Origin: Williamsia deligens
Lineage (GTDB): Bacteria; Actinomycetota; Actinomycetes; Mycobacteriales; Mycobacteriaceae
Reading direction: 5' to 3'
Length of the DNA stretch: 64,000 bases
Assembly: GCF_024171765.1 (NCBI RefSeq)
Contig: NZ_JAMTCI010000003.1
Span: 186,001 to 250,000 of the forward strand
Under the pieces are notes generated by a model, which saw only the letters and a program-made list of their open reading frames with translations, had not been told where the DNA came from and searched no databases. The translations under genes were made by a program, and so were the position numbers. Shown in pieces: positions 9,684-12,987 of this stretch. Numbering within the stretch: the stretch's first letter is position 1; each line of letters opens with the position of its first letter.

Positions 9684-11342
9684 GTGAGCGAGAGGTCGAC
9701 GTCCCGTCCCGGTGGTGACGGCGGACCCCCGCCGACCGGCGGTCTGCGCCCCACCTCCGTCGCCCCGAGCGCCGTGGCGACCATCGCCACCGCGGTCTCG
9801 GCCCGCCTCGACCTCCTCGGCGGCGCGACCGTCGACACCACCGTCACGGGCGCCACGCTGCGCGCGCAGGACGTCGTCGCCGGTGACCTGTTCGCCGCGC
9901 TGCCCGGCGCCCGGGTGCACGGCGCCCAGTTCGCCGTGGACGCCGTTGACGCCGGCGCGACCGCCGTGCTCACCGACCCGGCGGGTGCCGCCCTCCTGCA
10001 GTCGTCGGTGCCGCCCGGTACGTCGGTGGCCGTGCTGGTGCACCCGGACCCGCGCGCCGTGCTCGGTGCCGTGTGCGCCCGCGTGTACGGCGATCCGTCC
10101 CGGCGGTTGCGTCTGATCGGCATCACCGGGACGTCGGGCAAGACGACGACGAGCTACATGCTGGAGTCGGCGCTCATGGCGGCCGGCCACACCGTCGGAC
10201 TCATCGGCACCGTCGAGACCCGCATCGGCGGTGTGCGCCAACCGAGTTCCCTCACCACACCGGAGGCCCCCGCCCTGCAGGCGTTGTTGGCCACCATGGT
10301 CGAGCAGGGCGTCGACACCGTGGTGATGGAGGTGTCCAGCCACGCCCTCGCGCTCGGACGGGTGCGGGGGGCACGGTTCGCGATCGGCGCGTTCACGAAC
10401 CTGTCGCAGGACCACCTCGACTTCCACCCGACGATGCTCGACTACTTCGAGGCCAAGTCGCGGCTCTTCGTGCCGGTGCCGTCGGAGCTCACGTTGCCGG
10501 GATCGTCCGAGCAGGCCGCGCGCGCGGTGGTCTGCGTCGACGACGAGTGGGGTACCCGGCTGGCCGGGATGGTGGGTGACGACGCGGTGACCGTGTCGAC
10601 GCAGAACTCCGCCGCGGCCTGGTTCGCCGGCCCGTCCGAGCTGGCCGCAGACGGATCGCAGACCGTCTCGGTCCGGACGCCGTCGGGCACGGATCACACA
10701 CTGCGCGTGCCCCTGCCGGGCCGCTACAACGTCGCGAACGCGGTGGTCGCGCTCGCCGTGGCCGATGCCGCCGGGGTCGGTGTGGACGACGCCACGCGGG
10801 GCATCGCAGACGTGCGGGTGCCCGGGCGGGTGGAGCTCGTGGAGCGAGGGCAGGACTTCCTCGCCGTCGTCGACTACGCGCACAAACCTGCGGCGCTCGA
10901 CGCGGTGATCGCCACCCTGCGCGGCCAGGGTGACGGGCGACTGGCGGTGGTCGTGGGCGCGGGAGGCAACCGCGATGTGGGCAAGCGTCCGCTGATGGGG
11001 GCAGCCGCGGCGCGGGGCGCGCACCTGGTGGTCGTCACCGACGACAACCCGCGCGACGAGGATCCCGCTCTCATCCGGGCCGCGGTGCGCGCCGGGGCCG
11101 ACGGGGTCGCCGCCGACGAGCGTCCGGCCGGCGCCGACGACGTCGTCGAGATCGGTGATCGCGAGAAGGCCATCCGTCATGCGATCACCTGGGCGCGGAC
11201 GGGCGACATCGTCCTGGTCGCCGGCAAGGGACACGAGACGGGCCAGGAGGTCGCGGGTGTGAAGACGCCCTTCGACGACAGACTGGTGGTGGCGCAGGCG
11301 ATCGACGACCGCCCGACGCACGACGAGGGGGGAACCGCATGA
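9684..11342 (+). CDS. murE: UDP-MurNAc-L-Ala-D-Glu:meso-DAP ligase MurE
   Basis: 552-residue cytoplasmic Mur ligase that adds meso-diaminopimelate to UDP-MurNAc-dipeptide. The ATP loop GTSGKTTTSYML is near residue 150. The motif DNPRDEDP near 453 is the diaminopimelate-recognition signature, so the wall is meso-DAP type. GTG at 9684 has AAGGAG at 9667-9672. TAGGGT near 9610 could serve as an internal promoter in the 92-base gap after ftsI. The stop overlaps the start of the MurF-like remnant (ATGA). Confidence 0.95.
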   Translation: MSERSTSRPGGDGGPPPTGGLRPTSVAPSAVATIATAVSARLDLLGGATVDTTVTGATLRAQDVVAGDLFAALPGARVHGAQFAVDAVDAGATAVLTDPAGAALLQSSVPPGTSVAVLVHPDPRAVLGAVCARVYGDPSRRLRLIGITGTSGKTTTSYMLESALMAAGHTVGLIGTVETRIGGVRQPSSLTTPEAPALQALLATMVEQGVDTVVMEVSSHALALGRVRGARFAIGAFTNLSQDHLDFHPTMLDYFEAKSRLFVPVPSELTLPGSSEQAARAVVCVDDEWGTRLAGMVGDDAVTVSTQNSAAAWFAGPSELAADGSQTVSVRTPSGTDHTLRVPLPGRYNVANAVVALAVADAAGVGVDDATRGIADVRVPGRVELVERGQDFLAVVDYAHKPAALDAVIATLRGQGDGRLAVVVGAGGNRDVGKRPLMGAAAARGAHLVVVTDDNPRDEDPALIRAAVRAGADGVAADERPAGADDVVEIGDREKAIRHAITWARTGDIVLVAGKGHETGQEVAGVKTPFDDRLVVAQAIDDRPTHDEGGTA

Positions 11343-11830
11343 GCGACGAGACGATCTGGGTCATCGACCGGACCGGGGGCGCCATCGGACCCGACGCCGT
11401 GTCCGACGCGCTGGCCGATCTGGTCCGCGCCGCCCGAGAGCGGTCCTCCGTCCCGGGGACGGTGCGGACGTGGGCGGTCCTGGGAGAACTCGCGACCGGG
11501 GACGCATCCGACGACACCTCCGACCCCACCGGCGCCGATCGGGCGGTCGCGCACGATCGCGTGGGTCGTCGCGCCGTGCGCCTGGCGGTGGACACGGTCG
11601 TCTCGGTGGGTGACGACTCACGCTGGGTCCGCGCACTGCACCAGGGTGCGGTGATGGAGGGGTCGTGGGGCGACGAGGCGCGACTGGTCGCCGACGCCGA
11701 CGCCGCCCGCGATCTGCTCGACGAGGAACTGGGGGACGGTGACGTGATCCTGCTCGCCGGCGGCGGGGCCGAGTTGTCCCGGTTGGCGCGGACATTGTTG
11801 GATGACCAACGGTGCACGGCCCGCCCGTGA
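11339..11830 (+). CDS. MurF C-terminal-domain remnant (truncated, degenerate)
   Basis: Only 163 residues where a ~500-residue MurF is expected. Residues about 45-163 follow the MurF C-terminal domain as I know it from mycobacteria: RTWAVLGELATG, AHDRVGRRAVRL, VVSVG, ALHQGAVMEGSWG, then DADAARDLLDEELGDGDVILL. The N-terminal UDP-substrate domain and the central ATPase domain with its GKT loop are entirely missing. Key C-domain motifs are also lost: DAYNANP appears as DRTGGAIGP, and the KxSxxxGL motif as AGGGAELSRL. The frame is intact, uses normal codons, has GAGGGGGG upstream and is coupled to murE by ATGA. It cannot catalyse D-Ala-D-Ala addition. It may be a decayed leftover, a scaffold or a regulator; the complete MurF must be elsewhere unless the assembly has a deletion. 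Confidence 0.8.
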   Translation: MSDETIWVIDRTGGAIGPDAVSDALADLVRAARERSSVPGTVRTWAVLGELATGDASDDTSDPTGADRAVAHDRVGRRAVRLAVDTVVSVGDDSRWVRALHQGAVMEGSWGDEARLVADADAARDLLDEELGDGDVILLAGGGAELSRLARTLLDDQRCTARP

Positions 11831-11889
11831 CACCGCGCGGTGGATCCCGCCCGCACACGCGGGGTGGATGCAGGATGGGGACGGACTAG

Positions 11890-12987
11890 GTGACGCAGAT
11901 CTTGGTGGCCGGCGCGCTCGCGCTGGCGGTGTCGATTCTCCTGACCCCCGTGCTCATCAAGGTCTTCTCCCGCCAGGGGTTCGGGCAGGAGATCCGTGTC
12001 GAGGGTCCCGAGAGCCACAAGACCAAGCGGGGGACGCCCTCGATGGGCGGCGTCGCGATCATCGCGGCGATGTGGGCCGGGTACTGGGGGTCGCACCTCA
12101 CCGGACTCATCAACGGTGGCCAGCGCCCGAGCGCGTCGGGGATGCTCGTGCTCGGCCTCGCGACCGTGCTGGGCGGCGTCGGCTTCCTCGACGACTTCAT
12201 CAAGATCCGCAAGCAGCGCAACCTGGGTCTGAACAAGACCGCCAAGTCGGTCGGTCAGCTGATCGCGGCGCTGCTCTTCGGTGTCCTGGCGCTGCAGTTC
12301 CGCAACGGCAACGGCGACGCCCCCGCGTCGGTCAAGTTGTCCTACACCCGCGACATCAACGCGGTGACCCTCGGCACCCTCGCCTTCGTCGTCTTCTGCT
12401 GGTTGGTGGTGGCCGCCTGGTCGAACGCGGTGAACTTCACCGACGGTCTCGACGGCCTCGCCGCGGGGTCGATGGCGATGGTCCTCGGCTCGTATGTCCT
12501 GGTCACCTTCTGGCAGTACCGCAACGCCTGCGCCGGGGGACCGAAGGTGGGTGCCGAGGTCAGCGCGGGCTGCTACAACGTGCGCGACCCGCTCGACCTC
12601 GCGCTGATCGCCGTCGCCGGTGGAGGGGCCTGTCTGGGGTTCCTCTGGTGGAACGCCGCACCGGCGAAGATCTTCATGGGTGACACCGGATCGCTCGCGC
12701 TCGGCGGCATGCTCGCGGGCCTGTCGATCACCACCCGCACCGAACTCCTCGCCGTCGTCCTCGGCGCGCTGTTCGTCGCCGAGATCGTCTCGGTGGTCAT
12801 GCAGATCGCGTTCTTCCGCACCACCGGTCGACGGGTGTTCCGGATGGCGCCGTTCCACCACCACTTCGAACTCGGGGGCTGGGCCGAGACGACGGTGATC
12901 ATCCGGTTCTGGTTGCTCACCGCCATCGCGTGCGCACTGGGCCTGTCCCTATTCTACAGCGAGTTCCTCACGTCGAACGGTGGCTGA
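11890..12987 (+). CDS. mraY: phospho-MurNAc-pentapeptide transferase MraY
   Basis: 365-residue polytopic membrane enzyme that makes lipid I from UDP-MurNAc-pentapeptide and decaprenyl phosphate. Family motifs are clear: [13 protein letters not shown] near residue 44, FLDDFIKI near 100, [16 protein letters not shown] near 182, [14 protein letters not shown] near 258 and the [10 protein letters not shown] motif near the end. GTG at 11890 puts the first membrane helix at residue 3, with AGGATGGGG upstream. It is separated from the MurF remnant by 59 bases and overlaps murD by 8 bases. Confidence 0.95.

Follow-up and report, generated by a model that had tools for sequence, protein, structure and literature searches.

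What has become of murF in the dcw cluster of Williamsia deligens? The window that we analysed, a stretch of 64,000 nucleotides from a genome of 4.41 Mb, carries an intact murE and an intact mraY (Table 1), and the 547 bases between the stop of the former and the start of the latter hold a single same-strand frame of interest. The original prediction, made from the letters of the window alone, held that this gap is too short to encode a full MurF, which is correct, although its count of 548 bases was not. It further proposed that the small frame, hereafter the remnant, encodes an isolated and degenerate MurF C-terminal domain, and that a complete MurF must exist elsewhere. The frame itself is as it had described, open, preceded by a likely ribosome site and coupled to murE through an ATGA overlap. 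Its closest named relatives in our scan are from Williamsia (W. serinedens, W. herbipolensis, W. maris and three others).

Table 1. Features of the murE–mraY region, with the murF/ddl pair found elsewhere in the genome. Positions are those of the window unless a locus or contig is named.
Feature	Position	Strand	Basis or remark
murE	9684..11342	+	intact; profile match and ORF list
Purine-rich Shine-Dalgarno-like stretch, GAGGGGGGAA, 5′ of the remnant start	11325..11334	+	sequence reading
ATGA, remnant start overlapping the murE stop	11339..11342	+	sequence reading
Remnant ORF, 163 aa, ATG start; complete isolated MurF C-terminal domain as predicted	11339..11830	+	profiles, model, structural realignment
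Former YNANP loop site, remnant residues 11-20, DRTGGAIGPD	11369..11398	+	by eye; motif absent by pattern
Kept HDxxGRxxVRL segment, remnant residues 72-82	11552..11584	+	column comparison
Kept HQGAVMEGSWGDEA segment, remnant residues 101-114	11639..11680	+	column comparison
Former KAS motif site, remnant residues 140-142, AGG	11756..11764	+	column comparison
mraY, 3′ neighbour	11890..12987	+	intact; profile match and ORF list
murF/ddl pair, head to head	L024:9362-10696 and 10771-11898; G000:C1 about 1288361-1290897	- and +	

Profile searches and a predicted structure confirmed that the remnant is one complete MurF C-terminal domain devoid of the substrate-binding and ATPase domains. In the HMM search that the original prediction had called for, it scored 28.3 bits (E 3.5e-6) with Pfam Mur_ligase_C (PF02875), whose gathering cut-off is 28.4, and 28.6 bits when taken together with its neighbours in frame. 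With the NCBIfam murF profile TIGR01143 it reached 29.5 bits (E 3.5e-7) over positions 338-411 of 418, far under the curated cut-off of 288.6, so that it does not qualify as a MurF ligase; the only other NCBIfam match was to the MurF end of the MurE/MurF fusion model (E 0.0048). As had been expected, the two other domains are missing and the catalytic motifs rewritten. There was no Pfam match to Mur_ligase or Mur_ligase_M up to E 10, a pattern search of the frame found neither a P-loop nor a YNANP-type motif, and the catalytic and ligand motifs looked for in the MurF C-domain (YNANP, xELG, KAS/KGS) do not meet their definition, the KAS site reading AGG.

The AlphaFold2 model of the remnant (70 alignment rows) is a single domain with a pLDDT of 90.9 and a pTM of 0.89. 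Mur ligases ranked first when it was searched with Foldseek, with one match at E ≤0.001, MurE 2xja. Structural realignment of the Foldseek candidates gave Z 14.2-16.1 and rmsd 1.8-2.5 for the top eight chains, over 112-132 aligned residues; seven of these chains are titled MurF and the eighth is 2am1, which we take to be MurF as well. The aligned span, from model residue 3 or 4 to 154-158, corresponds to about the whole MurF C-terminal domain, and the model and its structural matches together satisfy the definition of the Rossmann-like C-domain fold (PF02875). This evidence rests mainly on the realignment, which was limited to Foldseek's own candidates: a sequence search of alignment A3, from which 10 of 79 candidate rows had been left out, gave 0 matches at 0.001 among solved structures.

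The arrangement is not peculiar to one strain. The MurF C-domain remnant was present in 8/8 sampled genomes of the Williamsia genus and in all 64 chosen genomes of five related genera of the family sample, labelled g7 (Gordonia jinhuaensis), g9 (Gordonia), g11 (W. limnetica and W. faeni), g13 and g17 (W. sterculiae). It was placed after murE at the loci read, for a total of 72/72 genomes of Williamsia, Gordonia and near genera, and a motif search of the 72 frames found the MurF ATPase domain in none. About 1 kb missing from the assembly at this point would have refuted the original prediction; nothing is missing by comparison with the sister genomes, and an assembly gap is ruled out by the same arrangement in all 72. 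Chance occurrence is likewise ruled out by the presence of the domain in 8/8 and 64/64 genomes. The G. jinhuaensis remnant (L240:2970-3621) carries a long low-complexity C-terminal tail.

From which murF does the remnant descend? In 55 of the 58 loci where the genes are unfused, a start codon in the remnant frame overlaps the murE stop by 4 bases, and in native operons the murF start can overlap murE likewise in all nine in which both frames were found (ten were tried, one giving no result). This shared overlap indicates that the remnant seems to keep the native murF start, its first two domains having been lost by internal deletion. In blastp it matches a full MurF from Mycolicibacterium at 49% over 125 residues and shows no significant match to the full MurF of its own genome (best E 1.3). 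The C-domain tree groups all 27 remnants used in a single clade (100/96), which falls on the native side; the branch joining remnants and natives has a support of 91/91 and is not starred, and the acquired MurFs described below form a separate clade (100/100). We rejected the possibility that the remnant is a duplicate of the working MurF, as it lacks a significant blastp match to it and stands apart from it in the tree. Profiles, structure and tree, this last with the reservation just made on its joining branch, bear out the reading of the product as a MurF C-terminal domain, and we infer with strong support that both the substrate-binding and the ATPase domain were deleted in place from the native murF, which survives as a C-terminal domain overlapping murE.

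The complete MurF expected elsewhere exists. A single frame of the genome passes the murF cut-off of 288.6 (G000:C1:1288385-1289614, 387.4 bits over TIGR01143 positions 1-418), on a different contig from the window and head to head with the genome's only frame over the Ddl cut-off. With a score over the cut-off and intact motifs, this acquired copy meets the criteria for a functional MurF, its activity being inferred; all 32 acquired MurFs read have YNANP and VKGS, and EGSW occurs in 0/32. Of the 401 genomes of the family, 72 scored at least 506 bits with this MurF type, and all of them belong to g1, g7, g9, g11, g13 and g17. The remaining genomes scored at most 278 bits, 9/401 having no match at 1e-40. 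The same 72 genomes carry the remnant. A survey of Ddl in 61 relatives gave at least 508 bits in 13 genomes of those six genera (with one each of g9 and g11), 470 and 477 bits in two genomes of family f3, and at most 302 elsewhere. The ddl and acquired murF genes are head to head in 13/13 genomes tested, by coordinates and, for three of them, by direct reading; in the f3 genomes read, the sole murF over the cut-off also adjoins ddl head to head.

The original prediction had suggested that the complete copy was perhaps horizontally acquired, and its lineage is indeed foreign to the family by the family, class and phylum surveys and by the tree. Outside the order, the best MurF of the acquired type in the class survey (394 genomes) had 332 bits. 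In the phylum survey, 18 of 296 genomes had a match at the threshold of 1e-95, and scores of 339-454 bits came from f81, f96 and f122, families of another class, perhaps Acidimicrobiia, although this name is our guess. An origin in other Actinomycetes is disfavoured by this comparison of scores, from which the source of the acquired MurF appears to lie nearer to the class of f81, f96 and f122. A quick MurF tree, which included 13 of the 32 acquired MurFs and for which 4/13 other-class loci yielded no single frame with the motif, places the acquired MurFs, f3 and eight other-class rows on one side of a branch with support 99; the native MurFs are set apart with support 100, and the ninth other-class row (L324, f121) falls on their side. 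In 11/13 other-class loci, the 1.5 kb flank of murF contains ddl in head-to-head orientation, as in f3, and an intact divergent pair was therefore most likely transferred. In one tree (15 of the 32 acquired MurFs used), f3 is nested among the acquired MurFs with support 82; in the other MurF tree, it sits within an unresolved fork, so that the direction from donor to recipient is not fixed. These observations suggest that Ddl and MurF, both acting on D-Ala-D-Ala, were replaced as a linked pair. We have very little doubt about this evolutionary part of our account, in which a foreign pair took over and the native murF was reduced to its C-domain.

Is the remnant then simply decaying in place? 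The dN/dS check that had been proposed gave a median of 0.12 (range 0.04-0.25; Nei-Gojobori, 22 pairs), and the remnant is under purifying selection. The medians for murE and mraY in the same pairs, which come from related genomes with unfused genes only and are not independent, were 0.09 and 0.011. A frame without catalytic motifs under purifying selection satisfies one half of the definition of a conserved pseudoenzyme; the other half, a non-catalytic function, is here inferred.

To describe what is kept, we compared column by column 75 distinct remnants (72 from the genomes of the surveyed genera, all of which were read, and 3 from a pattern scan) with 66 native C-domains. Seventeen of the natives were gathered by similarity to the remnant and 49 by a scan including the pattern QGA[VI]MEGS, which inflates the motif frequency among them, 65/66. 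The xELG loop, the VPD turn, the KAS motif and GLW are lost or variable in the remnants; the YNANP loop precedes the compared columns, and its absence comes from the pattern search. On the other hand, R43, W45, H72, D73, G76, R77, V80, R81, L82, V90, G91, R95, Q102, G103, A104, M106, E107, G108, S109, W110, G111, E113 and D135 are each at 91-100% in both sets. The term "degenerate" used in the original prediction is thus apt for the catalytic positions, which have decayed, but not for these others, which are nearly invariant. The two segments HDxxGRxxVRL and QGAxMEGSWGxE, nearly invariant in the remnants, are also present in the native MurFs read.

EGSWG is found in 75/75 remnants, six of which, all from g9 (L108, L113, L163, L169, L171 and L173), have QGTVMEGSWG in place of the QGA form. 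Among full MurFs, EGSW(G) is absent from the two f3 rows, from nine other-class rows and from five rows of f27, f31 and f42, and EGSWG is absent from 4/4 sequences of a small-genome genus, g3 (L325-L328), perhaps Corynebacterium by our guess, which keep the catalytic motifs. Two f33 rows have EGSWG and the f43 row EGSWN.

By their place in the model's order of strands, the lost segments come after strands 1, 2, 4 and 5, and in Mur ligases the edge after these strands forms the active site. Most kept residues sit where strand 2 begins, within helix 66-81, where helix 95-106 ends, in the loop that leads into strand 4 and immediately ahead of strand 5; V90, G91 and R95 are exceptions to a placement on the opposite edge. 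Most invariant residues would accordingly occupy the edge opposite the active site, an argument from the topology of the model for which no coordinates were measured. Their invariance could be partly due to fold stability.

What could such a domain be kept for? As its chemistry is lost, and as it shares with the native MurFs a group of residues that the replacement lacks (EGSWG), a docking domain is the simplest explanation. In the scheme that we propose, the foreign ddl-murF pair would have taken over the chemistry in an ancestor of Gordonia and Williamsia, and the native murF would have lost its substrate and ATPase domains by internal deletion, its C-domain staying beside murE. The kept residues of HDxxGRxxVRL and QGAxMEGSWGxE may constitute a docking surface of the old MurF that takes no part in catalysis, and the remnant, as a single-domain pseudoenzyme, would present this surface next to MurE. 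It would most likely bind MurE, and hold it near MraY or the growth machinery.

MurE is the first candidate partner on account of the position directly after murE and of the MurE fusions. While 58/72 remnants are separate frames, the other 14, all of them in g9, extend MurE at its end as in-frame fusions; 14/52 Gordonia genomes thus carry the domain at the MurE C-terminus, among them, for the named records, G. sihwensis, G. malaquae, G. asplenii, G. liuliyuniae and G. spumicola. On a quick tree of 64 MurE rows, 4 changes of state are required for the fusion, at least 3 of them forced by starred branches, which indicates that one chain and two chains were swapped repeatedly. The AlphaFold2 model of the G. 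malaquae fusion (49 rows) has both parts folded (pLDDT 90.4), and with a pTM of 0.76 we claim no interface between MurE and the remnant; it was built on alignment A5, after alignment A4 had been dropped because separate remnant rows were aligned to MurE's own C-domain. Overlapping genes may however fuse easily, and fusion is therefore weak evidence of binding. The fusions, the foreign ddl of the same type beside the acquired murF, and the split between decayed and invariant positions had not been foreseen by the original prediction. The role that it did suggest, binding of neighbouring Mur ligases or MraY, remains hypothetical: it is compatible with the recurrent fusion to MurE, but the published M. 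tuberculosis screen described below saw no Mur-Mur contacts.

We consider it probable that the actinobacterial MurF C-domain bears a second, non-catalytic function separable from catalysis, kept alone as a scaffold after the foreign takeover and, in Gordonia, repeatedly joined to and cut from MurE. Our preference for docking as this function, with MurE as first candidate, is only slight: binding is inferred and no partner has been shown. The function also appears dispensable in some actinobacteria, as both f3 genomes read contain the acquired pair without the remnant. In these genomes (G038 and G053; loci L309 and L310), neither murF nor a remnant lies between murE and mraY, which are direct neighbours. 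The lack of EGSWG in the four g3 MurFs likewise speaks against our reading.

Docking onto something other than MurE, namely a NamH homologue, or the division or elongation proteins or kinases bound by mycobacterial MurF, is the alternative that best survives, and we regard it as unlikely without being able to set it aside. In a published M-PFC screen in M. tuberculosis, no Mur ligase bound another Mur ligase; the partners reported were DdlA and the NamH homologue for MurF alone, and FtsZ, FtsW, FtsQ, Wag31, a SepF homologue and PknA/B for the Mur ligases (PMC3605390). On these published contacts, MurE may be the wrong partner, and the remnant is indeed separate from it in 58/72 genomes; the repeated fusion and the location directly after murE argue the other way. 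The NamH version would be weakened if f33, which has EGSWG in two MurFs, is Streptomyces, as we guess. Muramic acid is not known to be glycolylated in Streptomyces.

The remnant could also be a regulatory domain, binding D-Ala-D-Ala, nucleotide or UDP-MurNAc-pentapeptide and sensing precursor level. Its fold is predicted to be complete and Mur C-domains bind the amino acid or dipeptide and part of ATP, but the strand-end loops of native MurFs that are lost or variable here (YNANP, xELG, KAS) make this reading quite improbable. We give still less credit to a role as helper subunit of the acquired MurF or Ddl: their co-occurrence with the remnant (72/72 genomes for MurF, 13/13 tested for the foreign Ddl) is set against the f3 genomes, which have the pair alone, against the complete C-domain with catalytic motifs that the acquired MurF already possesses, and against the location of the pair on another contig in the window's genome. 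A frame that merely passes ribosomes from murE to mraY would explain why the start overlapping the murE stop is kept in 55/58 loci, and has just as slim a chance, since a simple spacer accounts neither for a dN/dS of 0.12 nor for the nearly invariant residues, and murE and mraY adjoin directly in the two f3 genomes; purifying selection and these genomes without the frame disfavour a spacer-only reading. That it is a decaying pseudogene or an assembly error, for which only the loss of the catalytic motifs speaks, is hardly tenable, being already contradicted by the open frame in 72/72 genomes and by purifying selection.

How does a docking remnant of MurF compare with known systems? It resembles the native dcw MurF of Mycobacteriales, the UDP-MurNAc-tripeptide--D-Ala-D-Ala ligase, in the C-domain fold, the start overlapping murE and the HDxxGRxxVRL and QGAxMEGSWGxE segments, and differs from it in being without the substrate and ATPase domains, YNANP and KAS/KGS, so that ligase activity is not expected. 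A MurE-MurF fusion is known in Bordetella pertussis and is reported to bind MurG (PMC6420597). The Gordonia fusions are like this bifunctional protein (PRK11929) in joining MurE and MurF material in one chain, but have only the MurF C-domain after MurE, MurF catalysis being elsewhere; in the window, murE and the remnant are separate overlapping genes, and the order of a complete MurE followed by a complete MurF is not met. MurT, in the MurT/GatD complex, is comparable as a Mur ligase fold that serves in a complex and not in stem-peptide addition. Unlike the remnant, MurT is catalytic, with its ATPase domain retained.

That an essential gene can be displaced by a transferred, non-orthologous copy is a known general phenomenon, and here too a foreign-lineage ddl-murF pair stands in for the native enzymes; the difference is that, in 72/72 genomes, selection has maintained one domain of the displaced enzyme at its old site. 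In one collection of open-access literature, we found no paper joining murF or Mur ligase with Gordonia, or murF, Gordonia and Williamsia, and no description of a retained MurF C-domain in the titles and abstract starts among the matches listed. What is apparently new is not the displacement but the conservation of one old domain as a pseudoenzyme after it.

The roles of Mur ligases beyond catalysis, for example in a multienzyme complex, are hard to test as the enzymes are essential. The remnant amounts to a natural loss of the catalytic half with the other half kept in every one of the 72 sampled genomes, and experiments that remove it, mutate it or use it as bait would leave the ligase reaction untouched; their outcome would be informative on the same surface of the full-length MurF of Mycobacterium, Nocardia and Rhodococcus. 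If our reading is true, the isolated domain is a naturally occurring separation-of-function form of an enzyme that is essential, and it indicates that the MurF of mycobacteria and their relatives has a conserved interaction surface.

Two further observations concern other Mur ligases. In genus g22, three genomes have second MurF copies (G244:C42, G400:C8 and G412:C1) that are 45-46% identical to the acquired type, and the motif pattern found no frame at these loci. The Williamsia genome itself contains a second complete MurE-like Mur ligase outside dcw (L003:1063-2703, near 1549274 of G000:C1), in which RGSD replaces the KGHE of MurE.
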